A stretch of DNA of 64,000 bases, taken from the NCBI RefSeq assembly GCF_009827055.1, contig NZ_WUMK01000005.1:434001-498000 (forward strand), in the 5' to 3' direction. The stretch comes from Shinella kummerowiae. GTDB lineage: Bacteria; Pseudomonadota; Alphaproteobacteria; Rhizobiales; Rhizobiaceae. A program made the translations under genes and the position numbers. A model generated the notes under the pieces. It saw only the letters and a list, made by a program, of their open reading frames with translations. It searched no databases and was not told the origin of the DNA. Positions 33,586-45,971 of the stretch are shown piece by piece; within the stretch, counting starts at the first letter, position 1, and every line of letters starts with the position of its first letter.

Positions 33586-33648
33586 GCAGGTCCAGCAAAA
33601 GATCCGTGGGGCGGCATGATGCTGCCACACGAATCCCTACAAGGTCCG

Positions 33649-33669
33649 ATGCCGCCGGTCCGGCGGCAT
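33649..33669 (+). terminator. Intercistronic hairpin upstream of the DUF1045 gene
   Basis: ATGCCGCCG / CGGCGGCAT, a perfect 9-bp repeat with a 3-base loop (GTC), 64 bases after phnE2 and 27 bases before the next start. TTCTCT follows. It may reduce read-through from the transport genes or bound a new transcript. Confidence 0.55.
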
Positions 33670-33695
33670 TCTCTGAATTGCATAGGAATAAGCCA

Positions 33696-34403
33696 TTGCG
33701 TTACGCCCTCTATTTCACCCCGTCCGCAAGCGACCCGCTGACCCTTTCCGCCCAGCGCTGGCTGGGGCGCAATGCGTTTACCGGGGCCGCTCTCGAGCAG
33801 CCGAGCGTGAACGGACTCGATGGGGCAGCGCTGGCAGGATTGACGGCGGATCCGCGCCGCTACGGATTCCATGCCACGATAAAGGCGCCGTTTTCGCTTG
33901 CCGAAGGCCGCTCGGAGGCGGAGCTTGTGGCTGAGATCGGCCGGTTCGTCAGCGAGACCGAGCCGTTCGAAATCCCGGAAATCATCGTCGGCCGCCTCGG
34001 GTCTTTCTTCGCTCTGGTGCCGGCAGACGAGTGCGCGCCACTGCAAGGCTTTGCCGGCGAAGTTGTGCGCCGTTTCGAGCGTTTCCGCGCGCCGCTGACG
34101 TCTGCTGATATCGCACGGCGCAAGCCCGATGAACTGACCGCCACTGAGCGGCAGAACCTCGTGCAATGGGGGTACCCTTACGTGTTCGATGAGTTTCGTT
34201 TCCACATGACTCTGACGGGACGCGTGCCGGCCGAACGCCGCGATGCCGTCGAAGGCGTGCTTCTCGATCAATTCGCCGACTTCCACGGCCGCCCGCTGGC
34301 CGTCCATGGCCTCGCGCTCTTCCGCGAACAGTCGCGCGGCGCCGATTTCACCGTCCATTCGCTCTTCCCGCTGGGTGGGGCAGCCAACAGAAAGACCGCC
34401 TGA
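33696..34403 (+). CDS. DUF1045 phosphonate-cluster protein, 2H phosphoesterase-like
   Basis: 235 residues starting at TTG 33696 (AGGAA about 8 bases upstream). The two 2H-phosphoesterase-type motifs are visible: GFHATIKAPFSL near residue 50 and FRFHMTLTGRV near residue 170. RYALYFTPSASDPL at the N-terminus is typical of the DUF1045 family that occurs only in phn clusters. 2H enzymes hydrolyse or form cyclic nucleotide phosphates. As no phnP is in the cluster, this protein could open the 1,2-cyclic ribose phosphate made by PhnJ; that is inference. phnM starts one base after its stop. Confidence 0.85.
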   Translation: MRYALYFTPSASDPLTLSAQRWLGRNAFTGAALEQPSVNGLDGAALAGLTADPRRYGFHATIKAPFSLAEGRSEAELVAEIGRFVSETEPFEIPEIIVGRLGSFFALVPADECAPLQGFAGEVVRRFERFRAPLTSADIARRKPDELTATERQNLVQWGYPYVFDEFRFHMTLTGRVPAERRDAVEGVLLDQFADFHGRPLAVHGLALFREQSRGADFTVHSLFPLGGAANRKTA

Positions 34404-34404
34404 C

Positions 34405-35538
34405 ATGACCCGCGAAACCGTTCTTTCCAATGCCCGCATCGTGCTTGAGGACCGTATCCTCGACGGCACGCTGGTGTTGCGCGATGGCCTGATCGCCGAC
34501 ATCTCCGAAGGCTCCTCCGCGACCGGCGAAGACATGGAGGGCGACTTCCTGATCCCCGGCCTCGTGGAACTGCACACCGATCACCTCGAAGCCCACTATT
34601 CGCCGCGCCCCGGCGTGCGCTGGGGCCTGACGGCGGCGATCCAGGCCCATGACGCCCAGGTCGTCACGTCCGGCATCACCACAGTATTCGACTGCCTGCG
34701 CATGGGATCGGACGAGGACGGTGGCTTCGAGAAGGGCGAGATGCGCGCCATGGCCAGTGCCATCGCCGAAGCGCAGGCCGAAGATCGCCTGCGTGCCGAG
34801 CACCTCATTCACTTGCGTTGCGAAGTCTCGACCGACAACGTGCTGGAGCATTACGAAGAATTCGAGAACGACCCGATGGTCCGCCTCGTCTCGCTGATGG
34901 ATCACGCGCCCGGCCAGCGCCAGTTCCAGACGCTGGAGCAATATATCCTCTACTACAAGAAGAAGCGCGGCCTGACCGACGATGAGTTCGACGCCTTCTG
35001 CAAGCGCCAGCAGGATCTTTCCGCCCGCTACGCCAAGCCGCACCGTGATGCGATTGCCGCCTCCTGTGCGGCGCGCAACATCTCGGTCGCAAGCCACGAC
35101 GATGCGACCTTGGAGCATGTCGAGGAAGCCATCGGCTACGGCATTCGCCTCGCCGAATTCCCGACCAGCTTCGAGGCTGCAAAGGCCTCGCATGGTGCCG
35201 GCATGAGCGTGCTGATGGGCGCGCCGAACATCGTGCGCGGCAAGTCGCATTCCGGCAACATCGCCGCCCGCGATCTCGCGAACATGGGCGTGCTCGACGT
35301 GTTGTCGTCGGATTACGTGCCGTTCAGCCTGATGCATGCGCCGTTCATCCTTGCCGATGAGGGCATGGACCTGACCAAGGCGATCGCCATGGTGTCGACG
35401 ACGCCGGCTCGCACGGTCGGTCTCGATGATCGAGGCGCCATTGCCAAGGGCCTGCGCGCCGACCTCGTGCGCGTCCGCCGCCCCTCCGGCGTGCCGGTCG
35501 TGCGCTCCGTCTGGCGGCAGGGCAAGCGGGTGGCATGA
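34405..35538 (+). CDS. phnM: PhnM, alpha-D-ribose 1-methylphosphonate 5-triphosphate diphosphatase
   Basis: 377 residues. Amidohydrolase-fold metal motif LIPGLVELHTDHLEAHYSPR, then VASHDDATLEHVEEA and the C-terminal LSSDYVPFSLMHAPF. PhnM removes pyrophosphate from the ribose triphosphate phosphonate so that PhnJ can cleave it. The ATG at 34405 follows the DUF1045 stop; the stop overlaps phnN (ATGA). Confidence 0.96.
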   Translation: MTRETVLSNARIVLEDRILDGTLVLRDGLIADISEGSSATGEDMEGDFLIPGLVELHTDHLEAHYSPRPGVRWGLTAAIQAHDAQVVTSGITTVFDCLRMGSDEDGGFEKGEMRAMASAIAEAQAEDRLRAEHLIHLRCEVSTDNVLEHYEEFENDPMVRLVSLMDHAPGQRQFQTLEQYILYYKKKRGLTDDEFDAFCKRQQDLSARYAKPHRDAIAASCAARNISVASHDDATLEHVEEAIGYGIRLAEFPTSFEAAKASHGAGMSVLMGAPNIVRGKSHSGNIAARDLANMGVLDVLSSDYVPFSLMHAPFILADEGMDLTKAIAMVSTTPARTVGLDDRGAIAKGLRADLVRVRRPSGVPVVRSVWRQGKRVA

Positions 35539-36140
35539 GCATGGATGCCGAACAGGTGATCGCGCGGCCGTCGCCTGTGGCGGCGGGCACCATGGTCGTC
35601 GTCGTCGGCCCGAGCGGGGCCGGCAAGGACAGCGTGATGTCCTATGCTCAGCGCCACTTCGCAGACGAGGCGCGCGTGCAGTTCGTGCGCCGCGTCATCA
35701 CCCGCCCGGCCGATGCCGGTGGAGAGGCGCATGAGGCAATCGATGCGGATGGCTTTCGCCAACGCGCGGCCGATGGCGCGTTTGCCGTTTCCTGGGATGC
35801 ACACGGCTTGTCCTACGGCATTCCGCGCAAGACTCTCGATCAATTGGCACAGGGCGTGACGCTGGTCGCCAATGGCAGTCGCTCGGCGCTGCCGGCCTTT
35901 GCGGAGGCCTATCCGCGGCTGAAGGTCGTGCTCGTCACCGCCCGCCCCGACATTCTCGCTGCCCGTCTCGCCGCGAGAGGCCGGGAAAGCACGGAGGCGA
36001 TCGCCAAGCGGCTTGAGCGCGCCGTGCCGGAAATCGTCGTCTCGGCCGATACCGTCGTCATCGACAACAGCGGCGCGCTTGAAGCGGCGGGCGGCGCGTT
36101 CATCTCGTTGCTCGCCTCGGCGCTGGCGCGCAACGATTAG
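35535..36140 (+). CDS. phnN: PhnN, ribose 1,5-bisphosphate phosphokinase
   Basis: 201 residues. P-loop VVVVGPSGAGKDSVMSYAQ (about 16-34), then RRVITRPADAGGEAHEAID, guanylate-kinase-like. PhnN phosphorylates ribose 1,5-bisphosphate to PRPP, feeding the carbon of the pathway back to nucleotide synthesis. Last gene of the cluster; its stop is one base from the convergent photolyase stop. ATGA overlap with phnM. Confidence 0.95.
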   Translation: MSMDAEQVIARPSPVAAGTMVVVVGPSGAGKDSVMSYAQRHFADEARVQFVRRVITRPADAGGEAHEAIDADGFRQRAADGAFAVSWDAHGLSYGIPRKTLDQLAQGVTLVANGSRSALPAFAEAYPRLKVVLVTARPDILAARLAARGRESTEAIAKRLERAVPEIVVSADTVVIDNSGALEAAGGAFISLLASALARND

Positions 36141-38120: not shown

Positions 38121-38933
38121 ATGTTGGATGATGCGGCAAGCGGAAACACGAATGCCTGGTGGACGACGCACCGGGGTGCATCGCCCGTGGTCGCGACGGC
38201 TATTCACGATGGCCATGCGGTTTGCGAAAACCTGCTGCTGAAAATGGCACTCGACGAGGATGAACGCCTGCGCGAAGAGGACCCTTTCACCGCGCAAACC
38301 ATCCGCGACCTGCAAAACCGTATCGTCTTTCATCGCTCGCGTTTCGAGGTCGATCTCAATCGTGCCCGGGACGGGGCTTTCTACCTCTTGCCCGAGCAGG
38401 CCTGGGGGCTGAAGGTCTGGCGCGAAAAGCCCACCGATGCGGAGATCGCGGAGGCGCTCGCCGTTCACGACGCCTATTATGCCATGCTGGAAAACTATCT
38501 GCGTGGCATCGCGGCACAATACGGTCGCTTCATCGTGCTGGACATCCACAGCTACAACCATCGCCGCGGCGGAGCGGCAGTCGCTTCGACCGAGGCGAGC
38601 GAAGCCCCGGAAATCAATATCGGCACCGCCTCGATGGACCGAGAGCGCTGGGCGCCGGTCATCGAGGCATTCATGGCCTTCGCCGCGGATTTCGATTTTC
38701 TTGGCCGCAGGCTCGACGTGCGCGAGAACGTCGCCTTCCAGGGGCGGGGCGAGCAGACGCGGTTCATCCATGAGCGGTTTGCCGACAGCGGCTGTGCCAT
38801 CGCGATTGAATTCAAGAAGATTTTCATGGACGAGTGGACGGGCGCGCCGGACTGGCAGGCCATCGCGGCGTTTCGCGCGCTGATCACCGGATCCCTGCCT
38901 GTGCTCGAAGGGGCACTGCGGGAGGTCGCATGA
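38121..38933 (+). CDS. N-formylglutamate amidohydrolase-like protein
   Basis: 270 residues. Motifs of the FGase (HutG2-type) family: FEVDLNRARDGAFYL, FIVLDIHSYNHRRGG and CAIAIEFKKIFMDEWTG. The classical enzyme removes formate from N-formylglutamate with zinc; this branch is associated with other gene contexts and its substrate is unknown. Start ATG 38121 is preceded by only a weak Shine-Dalgarno (CAGGGCAGGGCGAAG). A poor EcfG-like match (GGAAC, 16 bases, CATT at 38063-38087) lies upstream. The stop overlaps the DUF1704 gene start by 4 bases (ATGA), so the two act together. Confidence 0.83.
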   Translation: MLDDAASGNTNAWWTTHRGASPVVATAIHDGHAVCENLLLKMALDEDERLREEDPFTAQTIRDLQNRIVFHRSRFEVDLNRARDGAFYLLPEQAWGLKVWREKPTDAEIAEALAVHDAYYAMLENYLRGIAAQYGRFIVLDIHSYNHRRGGAAVASTEASEAPEINIGTASMDRERWAPVIEAFMAFAADFDFLGRRLDVRENVAFQGRGEQTRFIHERFADSGCAIAIEFKKIFMDEWTGAPDWQAIAAFRALITGSLPVLEGALREVA

Positions 38934-40825
38934 GCCCGACCAGGAAGGTCCGAAAACCACGACGAAAGAAGGAGAAGTCGCTGGCCGAAGAGGTCGTCGA
39001 GGCGCTCGAGGCCGGGAAATCGGTGCGCAGGGATCTCGAAGGAGGGCGCCTTCATATCGACCGGCCGTTGCCGTTCCTCTGTCTGCATGTCGGGGAGCCG
39101 GACGGGCACATTGTCGCCCGCGAGGTTGCGGCGGCAAATGCCTCTTATCTGCTTGTCAGCCGGATCGAGGATGCCGTTGAACTCATCGTGCCGATCGCAG
39201 ACGCGCTCCGCCGGAAATTCGGCACCTTCGTGCTGTTCGACATAGACGAATTCGATCGCGACCGGCTGCTTTCCGACGACGCACCGTTTTTGCAGCCTTT
39301 CGAAGTCATGCTGTCGGCAACGCCCGGTATTGCGGCGAACCGGGCACTGGAGGCGTTTGAAACGGCGGTCAAGGCGTTCGAGGCGCGTTTTCGCACGCCG
39401 CATGTCGAGCTTTGTGCCGCAGACGACGATCCCTGCGTGCGCTCCGAGCTTTTGGCTTTGCAACTGCCGCTCCTGACGCTGCGTTTCGCGCCGATCTACC
39501 GCGTGACGGGATCGGACGCCACTTATCCGGATTTGCGCGAACGGCTCATCGACAACTTCCTCGATGCGGGCCTGCGCGCCTTCGCGGCGTTTCTCGATGC
39601 CGATGGCTTCCCGAAGCCGGCCACCTACCGCGCCTTTGGCCGCAAGGCCTTCATCGACGCGGTCGAACGGGCGGACCGCGGGATGGACGACGTCGCTTCG
39701 AGTTTCGATTTCCTGCTTGCCGTCACCCCGATCAATGCGGATGCGGCCTGGAAGGAATTCAAGGCGAACAAATTCGAAAAGCCGCCGCGGTTCCTGTATC
39801 GACCACTGAGCCTGCTGGTGGAACAGGAAAAGCGCCGGCTCTATTCGATCGCGCTCGACCGGCTCGAAGATCCGGTGCTGCACCAGATCTACCGGGAAAA
39901 GCAGCAGGAACTCGATCTTCAACTGACGCTGATCGCTGAACGGGAAAAAGCGCGGTTCGTCGAGTTTGGCCGTACGCTTTACGGCCCGGTGGAACCGTCG
40001 CTGTTGAAGGCTGCCCGCGAGGTTCTGGATGGGACCTCCGATGCCAGGCGCTTGCCGTCCCTTTCGGACGATGATGACGAGGTTGTGGACTGCTTCTACG
40101 TCGAGCATCGCGCACGCTCCATGATGCTGGACTACCATCTTCGCTACGACGGTTTCGACGCCGCCATCGAGCTGCGTGACGACGTGCCTGCCGGTCTCTT
40201 GGTATCGGGGCGCCGCCTGCTCATTTCCCGCCGCACACGCATGATGCGCCACCGCGTGGAAGCGCTGCTCAGCCACGAGGTGGGGGTCCATCTTCTCACC
40301 TATTTCAACGGTTCGGCACAGGGGCTGCGCGTGTTCCGGACGGGCCTTTCGGGTTACGAGGGCATGCAGGAGGGACTGGCGGTTTTCGCCGAATTCCTGG
40401 CCGGCGGCTTCACGCCGGAACGCCTGCGTCTGCTGGCCGCCCGCGTCATCGGTTGCGATCTCATGCTGGCGGGAGCGTCCTTCGCTGAAAGCTTTCGCGT
40501 ACTGGTACAAGACTATGATTTCGACACGGAAATGGCATTCGGTCTTCTGCTGCGGGTCTTTCGCGGAGGAGGACTCGCCAAGGATGCGATCTATCTGCGC
40601 GGCCTGCTGTCGCTGCTTAGCCACCTGAAGGCCGGCGGTGCGCTCGATCCGTTCTGGATGGGCAAGATTTCCGCGTCCCATTTCAGCGTGATGGAGGAGC
40701 TTGGAGCCCGCGGCCTGCTGAAGGCACCGATCCTTCGCCCCCTCTGTCTCGAAACCGACCGGGGGCGCGCAAGGCTGGAACGCGCCCGCGCCGGTCTCAC
40801 CCCCCTTTCCATGCTCGAAGCTTGA
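38930..40825 (+). CDS. DUF1704 (QEGLA/MATCAP-type) zinc carboxypeptidase-like protein
   Basis: 631 residues. The N-terminus is very basic (SPTRKVRKPRRKKEKSLAEE). The C-terminal catalytic part has the HExxxH motif LLSHEVGVHLLTYFNG (His449, Glu450, His454) and YEGMQEGLAVFAEF (QEGLA, Gln480-Ala484), the features of DUF1704. The same domain occurs in the eukaryotic tubulin carboxypeptidases MATCAP and its relatives, where the two His and a downstream Glu bind zinc. Bacterial members carry the old label flavohemoglobin expression-modulating protein. Likely cytoplasmic; no signal or membrane segment. Coupled to the gene before it and 11 bases from the ATP-grasp gene after it, suggesting a peptide ligase/peptidase cycle. 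Confidence 0.88.
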   Translation: MSPTRKVRKPRRKKEKSLAEEVVEALEAGKSVRRDLEGGRLHIDRPLPFLCLHVGEPDGHIVAREVAAANASYLLVSRIEDAVELIVPIADALRRKFGTFVLFDIDEFDRDRLLSDDAPFLQPFEVMLSATPGIAANRALEAFETAVKAFEARFRTPHVELCAADDDPCVRSELLALQLPLLTLRFAPIYRVTGSDATYPDLRERLIDNFLDAGLRAFAAFLDADGFPKPATYRAFGRKAFIDAVERADRGMDDVASSFDFLLAVTPINADAAWKEFKANKFEKPPRFLYRPLSLLVEQEKRRLYSIALDRLEDPVLHQIYREKQQELDLQLTLIAEREKARFVEFGRTLYGPVEPSLLKAAREVLDGTSDARRLPSLSDDDDEVVDCFYVEHRARSMMLDYHLRYDGFDAAIELRDDVPAGLLVSGRRLLISRRTRMMRHRVEALLSHEVGVHLLTYFNGSAQGLRVFRTGLSGYEGMQEGLAVFAEFLAGGFTPERLRLLAARVIGCDLMLAGASFAESFRVLVQDYDFDTEMAFGLLLRVFRGGGLAKDAIYLRGLLSLLSHLKAGGALDPFWMGKISASHFSVMEELGARGLLKAPILRPLCLETDRGRARLERARAGLTPLSMLEA

Positions 40826-40836
40826 GGAGAGCAGCC

Positions 40837-41883
40837 ATGCGCATCGCCTTTTTCGTCAACTCCATCGAGGGGGAAACCCCGACCTATACGACCACGGCGC
40901 TCGCCATGGCGGCGGTCGCGCGCGGACACGACATTTGGTACATAACGCCGGGTGATTTCGTGCTGCGCGCCGACGACACGCTCTCGATCCGGGGCCGTGT
41001 TCCGCCCGGCAAACGCTACAAGAAGCCGGAGAGTTTTCACGCTGCCCTCCAGGGTGACGACGCAGCGATCGAGACGATGGATGTAAGCGACGTCGACGTC
41101 GTTTTCCTTCGCAACGACCCCTCGCTTGATGCCGACGACCGGCCCTGGGCGGCCCATGTCGGTGCGATGTTCGGCCGACTTGCCGCCGCGCGCGGAAGCA
41201 TCGTCGTCAACGATCCGGACGGTCTGTCGCTGGCGCAGAACAAGCTTTATTTCCAGGGATTTCCACGGGCGGTTCGTCCCGAAACGCTGATCTCCAAGAG
41301 TATCGACGAAATCAAGGCCTTCATCGACAGCCACAAGGAAGGCGTCATCATGAAGCCGCTGCAAGGGTCCGGCGGCAAGAACGTCTTCAAGATCGGCTCC
41401 GCCGATGAAGCAAATCTCAACCAGATTTTCGAGGCGGTCAGCGGCGAGGGATACCTGATCGTCCAGAACTACTTGCCGGCCGCAACAGAGGGAGACGTCC
41501 GTCTGTTCCTGATGAACGGCCGCCCGCTGGAGCACGGCGGTAAATATGCCGCCATCCGCCGCGTGCCGGCCAAGGGCGAGGTCCGCTCGAACATTCACGC
41601 GGCCGGGACGGCTGTCGCCGTCGAGATCACGCCGGAAATCCTGGCGATCGCTGAAATGGTCCGCCCCAAGCTCATCGAGGACGGCATGTTCCTGGTCGGC
41701 CTCGACATCGTCGGCGACAAGATCCTGGAAATCAATGTCTTCACGCCGGGTGGCCTTAGCGCAATGCTCGATCTCTACGATGTCGACTTTGCCGAGAACA
41801 TCATCTCAGCGCTGGAAGACAAGGTAACCCAGCGCGACGCCTATGCCGGCGTGATTGCCAACAGGACACTCGCTACCTTGTAA
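40837..41883 (+). CDS. ATP-grasp ligase, GshB/RimK-like
   Basis: 348 residues. N-terminal MRIAFFVNSIEGETPTYTTT and GHDIWYITPGDFVLR resemble the GshB pre-ATP-grasp domain. ATP-grasp elements: GVIMKPLQGSGGKNVF, YLIVQNYLPAATEGDVRLFL, KGEVRSNIHAAG and GLDIVGDKILEINVFTPGG with metal-binding Glu and Asn. Relatives ligate amino acids to peptides or glycine to gamma-glutamylcysteine. No gamma-glutamylcysteine synthetase is nearby, and the partner genes are a DUF1704 peptidase and an FGase-like hydrolase, so a peptide-tail ligase is more likely than glutathione synthesis. AGGAG lies 6 bases before ATG 40837. Confidence 0.88.
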   Translation: MRIAFFVNSIEGETPTYTTTALAMAAVARGHDIWYITPGDFVLRADDTLSIRGRVPPGKRYKKPESFHAALQGDDAAIETMDVSDVDVVFLRNDPSLDADDRPWAAHVGAMFGRLAAARGSIVVNDPDGLSLAQNKLYFQGFPRAVRPETLISKSIDEIKAFIDSHKEGVIMKPLQGSGGKNVFKIGSADEANLNQIFEAVSGEGYLIVQNYLPAATEGDVRLFLMNGRPLEHGGKYAAIRRVPAKGEVRSNIHAAGTAVAVEITPEILAIAEMVRPKLIEDGMFLVGLDIVGDKILEINVFTPGGLSAMLDLYDVDFAENIISALEDKVTQRDAYAGVIANRTLATL

Positions 41884-41889
41884 GGGCGA

Positions 41890-42216
41890 TCAGATCAGTT
41901 TGCTGTTTGCCGCAGCCTTGGAAGACTTCGCCTTGGCGACGGCTTTGGCTGCGGCCGGCTTCTCAGCCGCGGCATCCGCCTTCTTCTTCGACTTGGCCGC
42001 CTCAGACTTCTTGTCCTGGGCTTTCGCGGAGATTTCGATCAGCGGCTTCTTCTTGCTCGCCGGCTTTGTCTCGGGGGCGAGTGCCACGCGCTCGAACTCC
42101 TCACGCTCAAGCACAGCCTGGGCCCAATGGTCGGCGTCATGACCATGCGGTCGCCCGGCTTCTTCCCAGATCGTGTAGGCGCGCTTGCTGATCCATTCAC
42201 TTCTCGCATCCGTCAT
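41890..42216 (-). CDS. DUF2934 domain protein with Lys/Ala-rich tail
   Basis: 108 residues. The N-terminal 45 residues carry the DUF2934 signature (ISKRAYTIWEEAGRPHGHDA, then HWAQAVLEREEF). The rest is low-complexity Lys/Ala/Glu (SEAAKSKKKADAAAEKPAAA), histone H1-like, suggesting nucleic-acid binding or general charge interaction. The function of DUF2934 is unknown. Convergent with the ATP-grasp gene (6-base gap). Confidence 0.75.
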   Translation of the reverse strand: MTDARSEWISKRAYTIWEEAGRPHGHDADHWAQAVLEREEFERVALAPETKPASKKKPLIEISAKAQDKKSEAAKSKKKADAAAEKPAAAKAVAKAKSSKAAANSKLI

Positions 42217-43052: not shown

Positions 43053-45971
43053 ATGACAGGTGAAATGATTCTGGTCCTGCTGGTCTGCCTTCCCTTTGCG
43101 GGAAGCCTTGCCGCGACCATTCTCTTGCGGACGGATTCCCGCATTCTTGCAGCGCGCATGTCGGGCGTCGTGTCGTTTGCCGCCCTCCTGTTGACGGCGG
43201 CGCTCTATCCGGCGGTGCGCGATGGCGGCAAGGTTCGGCTCGATCTCGAATGGCTGCCGCAGCTCGGATTGAACGTCACGCTGCGCATGGACGGCTTTGC
43301 CTGGCTTTTCGCCATGCTCATCACCGGCATCGGTTGCCTCGTCGTGCTCTATGCGCGGTACTACATGTCGGAAGAGGATCCGGTCCCGCGCTTCTTCTCC
43401 TTCCTGCTCGCCTTCATGGGCTCCATGCTTGGCATCGTGCTGTCGGGCAACATCATCCTGCTCTCGGTGTTTTGGGAGCTGACCAGCATCTTCTCCTTCC
43501 TGCTCATCAGCTACTGGCACAACAATGCCGCGGCGCGTGACGGCGCACGCATGGCGCTGACGATCACCGGCATTGGCGGCTTCTGCCTGCTCGCCGGCCT
43601 GCTGGTGCTCGGCCATATCGTCGGCAGCTATGACCTCGATGTGGTGCTCGCCTCTGGAGACCAGATCAAGGCGCATCCGCTCTATCTCACCGCGCTCGTG
43701 TTGATCCTCATGGGCGCATTGACCAAAAGCGCGCAGGTGCCGTTCCATTTCTGGCTGCCGAATGCCATGGCGGCGCCGACGCCGGTCTCGGCCTATCTGC
43801 ATTCCGCCACCATGGTGAAGGCGGGCGTCTTCCTGCTGGTGCGTTTCTGGCCGGCCCTGTCGGGCACCTATGAATGGTTCATGCTGGTCGGCATCGCCGG
43901 CATCAGCACGCTGATCCTCGGCGCCTATTTCGCCATGTTCCAGCAGGACCTGAAGGGCCTGCTCGCCTACTCGACGATCAGTCATCTGGGCCTCATCACC
44001 ACGCTGCTCAGCCTCGGCAGCCCCGTCGCTGCGGTCGCGGCGATCTTCCACATGATGAACCATGCCACCTTCAAGGCGTCGCTCTTCATGGCCGCCGGCA
44101 TCATCGATCATGAGACCGGCACGCGCGACATGCGACGATTAAGCGGGCTCCTGAAATACCTGCCGATCACCGGCACGCTCGCCATGGTGGCGAGCGCGGC
44201 CATGGCCGGCGTGCCGCTGCTCAACGGCTTCATCTCGAAAGAGATGTTCTTCGCCGAAGCCGTTGAAACGCACGCGGATTCCGTGCTCGACCGCATCCTG
44301 CCCTATATCGCGGTGCTCGCCGGCGCCTTCTCCGTCGCCTATTCGCTCCGCTTCATCCACATGGTGTTCTTCGGCCCTGAACCGACCGACCTGCCGAAGC
44401 CGAAACCGCACGAGCCGCCGCACTGGATGCGCTTCCCGATCGAATTCCTGGTGCTCGCCTGCCTGGTGGTCGGCATCATTCCCAGCCTGTCGATCGGCCC
44501 GTTCCTGCATTCGGCCGTCGTCTCCGTGCTTGGCGACCGCACGCCGGAATACAGCCTCGCTGTCTGGCACGGCATCAATACCCCACTCATCATGAGCGTG
44601 ATTGCGCTGGTCGGCGGCGTGGCGCTCTACGCGGTGATGAAGGACTACCTCGCCAAGTGCGACGATGGCCCACCGCTCTTCCGCCATCTCGGCGGCCAGC
44701 GCATCTTCGAGCGTGTGCTCGTGACTGTCTCGTGGAAATGGGCGCGCTGGATGGAAAGCCGCCTGGGCACACGCAATCTGCAGCCGCAGTTGCGCCTCAT
44801 CGCCGCTGCCGGTCTGCTGGCCGGTGTCTTGCCGCTCTATATCGCCGGCTTTGCGCCGACACCGCTCGCTTTTGACGGTATCGATCCGATCTTCGCCGCC
44901 GTCTGGTGTGTTGGGGCGTTCTGTGCGCTGGGTGCGGCCTATCAGGCGAAATATCACCGTCTTGCGGCGCTCGTCCTGCTTGGCGGCGCGGGCATCACCA
45001 CCTGCATCACCTTCGTCTGGCTGTCGGCCCCGGACCTTGCCATCACGCAGCTCGTCGTCGAGATCGTCACGACGGTCCTGTTGCTGCTCGGCCTGCGCTG
45101 GCTGCCGAAACGGTCCGAAAAGGTCGACAATTCGGTCACGTTTTCTGCCCGTAGCCGCCGCTTTCGCGACTTTCTGCTCGCGATTTCCTGCGGCTTCGGC
45201 ATGTTCGTTTTCTCCTACGCGATCATGAAGCAGCCGGTGCCTGATGCGATCGCCAGCTATTTCCTGGAGAAGGCCTATACCGAAGGCGGCGGGCGCAACG
45301 TGGTCAACGTCATCCTCGTCGACTTCCGCGGCTTCGACACGCTGGGCGAGATCGCCGTTCTCGCCATCGTGGCCCTGACCGTCTTCGCACTGCTGCGTCG
45401 CTTCCGCCCGGCGCCGGACAGCGTGGACAAGCCGGAACAGCAGCGCATCCAGAATGCCTATGACGCGGAACGCCCCGAGCGTTCGGCGGGCGATACCGTG
45501 CGCGACTACCTGCTCGTGCCGTCCGTGATCATGCAATGGATGTTCCCGGTCATCATCACCTTCTCGATCTACCTGCTCCTGCGTGGGCATGACCTGCCGG
45601 GCGGTGGCTTCGCCGCTGGCATCACCATGGCGATCGCCTTCCTGCTGCAATATCTTGCCGGCGGCGTGCGCTGGGCAGAAGACCGCCTGCGCATCCTGCC
45701 GCTGCGCTGGATGGGCATCGGCCTTCTTATGGCGGCCCTTACGGGCATGGGCGCCTGGCTGTTCGGCTATCCGTTCCTGACGACCTATTCGCAATATATC
45801 GAGCTACCCTTCATCGGCAAAATTCCGGCAGCGACCGCCCTCCTGTTCGATCTCGGCGTCTTCTCGCTCGTCGTTGGCGCCACGGTGCTCATCCTGATTG
45901 CGCTTGCACACCAGTCCATACGTACGCATCGGGTCCGCGGCCTCGAAGCCACCAAGGCGGAGGAAACCTGA
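43053..45971 (+). CDS. mrpA: MrpA/MrpB fusion, Na+(K+)/H+ antiporter subunit A
   Basis: 972 residues. The N-terminal two thirds is the ND5-like antiporter (DGFAWLFAMLITGIGCLVVL, SAQVPFHFWLPNAMAAPTPV with the conserved Lys, and HSATMVKAGVFLL). The MrpA-specific C-terminal part follows (about 600-780), then an MrpB-like domain (about 820-950; MFPVIITFSIYLLLRGHDLP, GGGFAAGITMAIAFLLQYLA). A/B fusion defines group 2 Mrp operons, which in rhizobia are also called pha. The complex exports Na+ or K+ in exchange for H+ and supports growth at alkaline pH and symbiosis in Sinorhizobium. The ATG at 43053 has no strong ribosome site. One-base overlap with mrpC. Confidence 0.95.
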   Translation: MTGEMILVLLVCLPFAGSLAATILLRTDSRILAARMSGVVSFAALLLTAALYPAVRDGGKVRLDLEWLPQLGLNVTLRMDGFAWLFAMLITGIGCLVVLYARYYMSEEDPVPRFFSFLLAFMGSMLGIVLSGNIILLSVFWELTSIFSFLLISYWHNNAAARDGARMALTITGIGGFCLLAGLLVLGHIVGSYDLDVVLASGDQIKAHPLYLTALVLILMGALTKSAQVPFHFWLPNAMAAPTPVSAYLHSATMVKAGVFLLVRFWPALSGTYEWFMLVGIAGISTLILGAYFAMFQQDLKGLLAYSTISHLGLITTLLSLGSPVAAVAAIFHMMNHATFKASLFMAAGIIDHETGTRDMRRLSGLLKYLPITGTLAMVASAAMAGVPLLNGFISKEMFFAEAVETHADSVLDRILPYIAVLAGAFSVAYSLRFIHMVFFGPEPTDLPKPKPHEPPHWMRFPIEFLVLACLVVGIIPSLSIGPFLHSAVVSVLGDRTPEYSLAVWHGINTPLIMSVIALVGGVALYAVMKDYLAKCDDGPPLFRHLGGQRIFERVLVTVSWKWARWMESRLGTRNLQPQLRLIAAAGLLAGVLPLYIAGFAPTPLAFDGIDPIFAAVWCVGAFCALGAAYQAKYHRLAALVLLGGAGITTCITFVWLSAPDLAITQLVVEIVTTVLLLLGLRWLPKRSEKVDNSVTFSARSRRFRDFLLAISCGFGMFVFSYAIMKQPVPDAIASYFLEKAYTEGGGRNVVNVILVDFRGFDTLGEIAVLAIVALTVFALLRRFRPAPDSVDKPEQQRIQNAYDAERPERSAGDTVRDYLLVPSVIMQWMFPVIITFSIYLLLRGHDLPGGGFAAGITMAIAFLLQYLAGGVRWAEDRLRILPLRWMGIGLLMAALTGMGAWLFGYPFLTTYSQYIELPFIGKIPAATALLFDLGVFSLVVGATVLILIALAHQSIRTHRVRGLEATKAEET

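Follow-up and report, generated by a model that had tools for sequence, protein, structure and literature searches.

A conserved three-gene operon of Shinella kummerowiae encoding a MATCAP-domain protein, a GshB-like ATP-grasp ligase and an FGase-family hydrolase

The mammalian N-acetylaspartylglutamate (NAAG) cycle runs on an ATP-grasp ligase (RIMKL), a zinc carboxypeptidase (glutamate carboxypeptidase II) and an aspartoacylase. In the MATCAP family, the human enzymes TMCP1 and TMCP2 remove C-terminal Tyr or Glu from tubulin (PMC10499314), and in Pseudomonas aeruginosa an operon, rlo, encodes the retropepsin RloA, the 7TM-transglutaminase protein RloB and the ATP-grasp protein RloC (PMC12239564). 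Here we analyzed a stretch of 64,000 nucleotides from Shinella kummerowiae (contig NZ_WUMK01000005.1, forward-strand positions 434,001 to 498,000; hereafter the window), which holds three adjacent genes that we call FG, DU and AT. They encode a hydrolase of the N-formylglutamate amidohydrolase (FGase) family, a protein with a MATCAP (DUF1704) domain and a GshB-like ATP-grasp ligase, and an earlier sequence-only reading had taken them for an operon that ligates and trims the C-terminus of a peptide or protein. The features are as follows:

38121-38933, + strand: FG, a zinc amidohydrolase of the FGase family (PF05013), 270 aa
38930-40825, + strand: DU, a two-domain protein, 631 aa
39017-39610, + strand: N-terminal domain of DU (aa 30-227), with an FGase/M14-like fold and probably without catalytic activity
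39713-40819, + strand: C-terminal MATCAP domain of DU (aa 262-630), a HEVGVH...QEGLA zinc carboxypeptidase
40837-41883, + strand: AT, a GshB-like ATP-grasp ligase of the NCBIfam PRK12458 subfamily, 348 aa, with the loop EINVFTPGGL

The intact trio spans 38121-41883, and all three open reading frames (ORFs) are complete. The DU start overlaps the FG stop in an ATGA at 38930-38933, and an 11-base spacer (40826-40836) separates DU from AT. The sequence-only reading had placed the genes, the overlap and the gap correctly, and likewise the DU motifs HEVGVH (residues 449-454) and QEGLA (480-484).

Conservation of the gene set

Using an alignment of six long-form DUs as the query, we scanned a single genome of each species, obtained at least 566 relatives and kept the best 80; these loci are near relatives of the long form and not a random sample. 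Among them AT accompanies DU in 80/80 and FG in 78/80, the two without FG being L091, whose FGase lies on another contig, and L109, where the contig starts only at DU. In a few of the 80 a contig end truncates FG or AT, and at L110 FG and AT are on the opposite strand, with FG between DU and AT. Extra copies occur in the orders FG-DU-AT-AT-DU-AT (L105) and DU-AT-DU-AT (L109), and L085 has two AT genes. At L088, on a plasmid of Rhizobium sp. RCAM05350, the three genes appear split in tblastn, which suggests frameshifts or sequencing errors in the record.

DU and AT also co-occur in genomes drawn from the order and from the phylum. NF009110, the profile of the PRK12458 subfamily, scored over its cut-off in three of 199 genomes drawn from the order, the same three that encode a PF08014 (MATCAP/DUF1704) protein, and the two genes are closely spaced there (chance 7.7e-7). 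Over 299 genomes of the phylum, eight gave an NF009110 match over the cut-off, seven of which have PF08014 (chance 3e-7); in the eighth (G109), AT lies at a contig edge. PF08014 itself was found in 29/299 phylum genomes, the remaining 22 having no NF009110 match over the cut-off, and the PF08014 ORFs of those 22 are mostly 430-570 residues long (range 180-719). All 13 genomes of the same family in the phylum sample lack PF08014, and the operon is therefore patchy.

With one gene copy taken per locus, pairwise distances across 73 loci were closely correlated between DU and FG (r 0.94), DU and AT (0.96) and FG and AT (0.91), and the 22 non-rhizobial loci gave 0.945, 0.925 and 0.905, respectively. 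By record title, the hosts of the trio are Rhizobiales, other alphaproteobacteria, Luteimonas, Pseudoxanthomonas and Pontibacter, together with metagenome bins labelled, among other names, Planctomycetota, Gemmatimonadota, Calditrichaeota, Verrucomicrobia, Poribacteria, Acidobacteria and Kiritimatiellae. The DU of Shinella curvata is 83% identical to that of the window and the DU of 'Sinorhizobium sp. RAC02' 94%. Plasmid records with a DU-like gene number 116, of which 79 are from Sinorhizobium. Judged by these sequence comparisons, the three genes form a real unit, and the co-occurrence of the three families that the sequence-only reading had anticipated is borne out.

The unit varies in its arrangement. 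FGase and MATCAP are fused in one ORF, with AT upstream, at L026/L119, L120 and L128, a genuine FGase domain standing there in the position of the N-terminal domain of DU. At L117 (G093, contig C24) a gene of the AstE/AspA type (aspartoacylase/succinylglutamate desuccinylase), a family that cleaves N-acyl-Asp/Glu, abuts DU in the place of FG. The L120 fusion (G394) comes from a genome of the same order as the window; elsewhere in that order the three genes are separate.

Domains of DU and FG, and the distinctness of AT

DU scored 293.4 bits against Pfam PF08014 (cut-off 27), which places it in the MATCAP/DUF1704 family, and 348.4 bits against TIGR02421 (cut-off 338.65). It is 17-20% identical to human KIAA0895L and KIAA0895, and its predicted structure (mean pLDDT 90.0, pTM 0.78) matched a solved MATCAP in fold, in keeping with the relation to the eukaryotic proteins proposed earlier. 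Residues H449, E450, H454, N460, Q480, E481, G482 and E488 are identical in 87/87 rows of the DU alignment, so the zinc motif (H449, E450, H454 and E481) is intact across the relatives examined, the Glu downstream of HExxxH being the third zinc ligand of the family. This identity, together with the recurrence of the gene set in different phyla, speaks against a chance resemblance.

DU is not a one-domain peptidase, since a second, N-terminal domain with an FGase/M14 fold precedes the MATCAP domain. The conserved histidine H143 of FG is mostly lost there, and the domain is probably catalytically dead. We also considered whether the invariant R45 of DU could be the counterpart of the carboxylate-binding arginine of FG and dropped this idea, as the alignment pairs R45 with a different stretch of FG. 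Nor did a basic N-terminus, once suggested as a docking tail, hold up: with start codons chosen by script, the net charge of the first 25 residues is at least +4 in only 16/87 rows and zero or below in 50/87.

FG belongs to the FGase superfamily (87.1 bits against PF05013, cut-off 28.9) and lies outside the HutG equivalog (28.3 bits against TIGR02017, cut-off 278.75). Its residues H29, E52/E53, H143, E230 and N80-R81 are conserved in at least 95% of 76 rows; from the M14 and FGase families we take the first four positions to be metal-binding or catalytic and N80-R81 to bind a carboxylate.

In genome annotation DU is a 'flavohemoglobin expression-modulating QEGLA protein' and AT a 'glutathione synthase'. 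AT scored 178.0 bits against PF02955 (cut-off 23) and 482.5 bits against NF009110 (cut-off 408), a subfamily named glutathione synthetase, a name that rests on annotation. It fell below the cut-offs of both GshB equivalogs (TIGR01380, 205.2 against 299.05; PRK05246, 222.3 against 272) and of RimK (TIGR00768, 73.4 against 143.4). By structural comparison its nearest relatives are GshB and RimK, GshB being the closest, with PsnB and MdnC lower in the list.

The loop after the E-x-N motif, which by analogy with GshB probably contacts the substrate, separates the two groups. It reads [FY]-[ST]-P-G in 84/84 AT rows that reach it (of 87 rows, three were left out as truncated or frameshifted) and V-T-S-P-T in 20/20 GshB sequences, comprising the genome's own and 19 chosen by hand from the profile matches in the order and phylum genomes, two of the 20 being near-identical. 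The three ATs of the fused type have L-S-P-G-G, and a RimK at locus L016 has S-A-P-G-L. An unrooted tree of 46 rows placed 22 AT, three fused-type AT and 20 GshB sequences each on one side of a branch. Support was strong for GshB (100/99), fair for fused-type AT (94/99) and, for the remaining ATs, modest (82/71); the single RimK formed a very long branch. The claim that no glutathione gene accompanies the trio stands for the adjacent genes that were scanned; elsewhere in the genome, contig C12 carries a GshB-like gene of its own. On these sequence grounds AT is distinct from the housekeeping GshB, as the earlier reading required, and the equivalog scores, the contig C12 gene and the tree exclude AT as the only glutathione synthase of the cell.

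A proposed make-and-trim cycle and its alternatives

We infer the reactions, the substrate, the pairing of FG with DU and an osmotic role for the trio as follows. AT would activate a carboxylate with ATP and couple an amino acid to it; the MATCAP domain of DU would clip that C-terminal amino acid off again, and FG would strip the N-acyl cap from the N-acyl-glutamate or -aspartate left over. The FGase-like domain of DU might help to bind the substrate or associate with FG. The operon would thus encode a self-contained cycle that extends and trims an acidic acyl-peptide at its carboxyl terminus, perhaps set in conditions of low osmolarity or low ionic strength, a reading that we favor tentatively and with rather less than even confidence. 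Of the ligation and trimming cycle first proposed for this locus, the co-occurrence, the zinc motif, the MATCAP relation and the distinct ligase have stood, and the basic tail and a protein substrate encoded nearby have not.

The low-salt setting comes from related loci. In Photobacterium sp. DA100, AT is followed by a fused FGase-MATCAP gene. COG3930 corresponds to DUF1704. A COG3930 gene lies beside a 'glutathione synthetase' gene in Vibrio vulnificus (PMC3091676). In Photobacterium damselae, an RNA-seq study gives a 38.4-fold rise at 1% relative to 3% NaCl for 'GshB' (A0J47_RS17020) and a 27.5-fold rise for the QEGLA gene with the next tag (A0J47_RS17025), and reads the induction of the former as glutathione synthetase (PMC10308900). 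Because Photobacterium sp. DA100 has AT with the fused gene, the P. damselae pair is presumably this system; if AT is a different ligase, both the glutathione-synthase annotation and that reading of the low-salt induction change.

Some scattered neighbors of the trio likewise suggest ion or osmotic functions. A CorA Mg2+ channel gene lies no more than 8 kb from the trio in 6/25 chosen genomes (L086, L090, L099, L100, L123 and L125) where 0.12 would be expected, a pattern that was spotted first and tested afterwards, and MgtE domains and MscS are each found near it in two loci. At L118, the genes after AT are PF05618, a 7TM-transglutaminase and ATPgrasp_ST, the combination found in the rlo operon; at L126, AT is followed by a PF05618 gene and one that by eye resembles a 7TM-transglutaminase. 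In P. aeruginosa the rlo genes govern tolerance of hypoosmotic conditions: mutants lacking the three RloA proteases fail at low osmolarity and are rescued by loss of RloB or RloC (PMC12239564).

Several observations weigh against the make-and-trim cycle as we have drawn it. The rescue by RloB or RloC loss means that an rlo-type neighborhood gives no direction of effect, and the low-salt data concern a presumed fused Vibrionaceae form assigned from annotation and tag order. N-acyl-Glu or -Asp as the FG substrate is suggested by family resemblance, FG scores far under the HutG cut-off, and the known MATCAPs act on protein tails. The gene set is also incomplete in places: DU has no adjacent AT at L117 or on a Vibrio plasmid (L127), no FG is within reach at L091, and in G113 FG is absent around DU on contig C16 and about 2 kb off on contig C283. 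Finally, the 1.5-kb flanks of 23 short-form DUF1704 loci, from the 22 phylum genomes with PF08014 and no NF009110 match over the cut-off, hold no FG and no close AT, and MATCAP-family proteins therefore also work without the trio. The sole AT-like match in those 23 loci is the RimK gene at L016, divergent from the short-form DUF1704 gene, which hints that the short form too may pair with a glutamate ligase.

The principal alternative is that of the earlier reading: AT adds amino acids to a cellular protein at its C-terminus, in the way that RimK modifies ribosomal protein S6, with DU trimming it and FG clearing the released acyl-amino acid. It is not obvious, however, what an FGase would do for a protein tail; the closest relative of AT is the small-peptide ligase GshB, and the basic DU N-terminus is not conserved. 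No conserved substrate protein emerged among the ORFs of at least 90 aa in 28 non-rhizobial loci, although such a substrate could be encoded elsewhere. Since this type of FGase acts on free N-acyl-amino acids, and since the family activities together with the AstE/AspA replacement at L117 resemble the NAAG cycle, we lean, without strong conviction, toward a small acyl-peptide, and regard the protein tail as rather unlikely. It is improbable that AT is a second glutathione synthase, with DU and FG turning over glutathione or gamma-glutamyl compounds: AT scores under both glutathione synthase equivalogs, its loop differs from that of GshB, and a GshB-like gene is already present in the genome, NF009110 matches being found in 195/199 genomes of the order and lying solely below the cut-off in 192. 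No GCS2 was found in 4/23 trio genomes, whose completeness is uncertain, metagenome-assembled genomes included, and the GshA family PF04262 was not searched.

A role in handling polyamines or other amines in the form of their amino-acyl or gamma-glutamyl conjugates would suit L119, where the two-gene form stands beside a glutamine-synthetase-family gene (Pfam) and genes that resemble the Puu putrescine pathway by eye, and polyamine genes are also up in the P. damselae low-salt data (PMC10308900). Against it, no recurring polyamine gene was recognized in the neighbor clusters of other loci, most of these neighbors having no profile annotation, and we consider this role more improbable still. 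Graspetides are matured by ATP-grasp ligases, and the presence of PsnB and MdnC in the structural list of AT might recall a cassette that matures a ribosomal peptide (RiPP); but the ligases most like AT are GshB and RimK, and the neighbor clusters hold no conserved extra gene, ORFs below 90 aa not having been examined, which makes such a cassette very improbable indeed.

More broadly, many phyla may run an NAAG-like acyl-peptide cycle whose product is an unrecognized low-osmolarity metabolite. The MATCAPs would have begun there as small-peptide carboxypeptidases, with an active FGase complexed to a DU that bears a dead FGase domain, before eukaryotes redirected the carboxypeptidase to tubulin; we regard this extended scenario as doubtful.

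Turning to the remaining neighborhood, no fourth conserved gene was found among ORFs of at least 90 aa in the 28 non-rhizobial loci. The next commonest cluster there comprises ABC-type ATPases, identified by eye, at nine loci (seven from Pontibacter), and the commonest other cluster of the rhizobial loci is again an ABC-type ATPase by eye (16/52). At L114, on S. meliloti pSymB, the trio is immediately followed by the genes of a galactofuranose ABC transporter (ytfQ, ytfR, yjfF). A LysR-type regulator, HdfR-like, is found near the operon or the fused gene at L118 (Pfam), L127 (annotation) and L122, L123, L125 and L128 (by eye), accompanied at L127 by maoP/DUF413. In the window, the profile-scanned neighbors of the trio are a photolyase, DUF454, DUF2934, an Mrp antiporter subunit and phn genes, and no retropepsin-like PF05618 protease was found among them beside the ligase. 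The phosphonate (phn) genes at 33606-36140 (a putative phosphonate metabolism protein, PhnM and PhnN) lie upstream of the opposite-strand photolyase gene, while the DUF2934 gene (41890-42216) is convergent with AT and is followed by a gene for subunit A of an Mrp-type monovalent cation/proton antiporter (43053-45971).

Comparison with known systems

Our literature search, in which subscription papers were partly covered, returned no account of the operon, of the FGase-like domain of DU or of the FGase-MATCAP fusion, and the accessible literature on DUF1704, QEGLA and COG3930/COG3931 yielded no characterization of the family. The enzyme families are thus known, and it is their combination, the DU domain and the fusion that have no printed account within that coverage. 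If our reading is correct, the operon would give the MATCAP family a bacterial setting and suggest that rhizobia, like many other bacteria, have a peptide metabolite or a protein modification still to be discovered.

Compared with MATCAP/TMCP (KIAA0895L and KIAA0895), to which its identity is low, the bacterial DU adds an N-terminal FGase-like domain and an ATP-grasp partner. AT stands apart from bacterial GshB in the tree, in its loop ([ST]PG rather than SPT) and in its scores under the equivalog cut-offs, and FG shares the PF05013 family with HutG while scoring far below the HutG cut-off. RimK/RimB and the Pseudomonas RloABC resemble the trio in that an ATP-grasp ligase is encoded with a peptidase of the same process, and genes matching the Rlo description adjoin the trio at L118; the peptidase is a retropepsin in those systems, whereas here it is a MATCAP metalloenzyme, and an FGase is added. 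The NAAG cycle shares with the trio ATP-grasp ligation, a zinc carboxypeptidase and a hydrolase of N-acyl acidic amino acids, the last echoed by AstE/AspA at the FG position in L117, and differs from it in that its carboxypeptidase belongs to another family.

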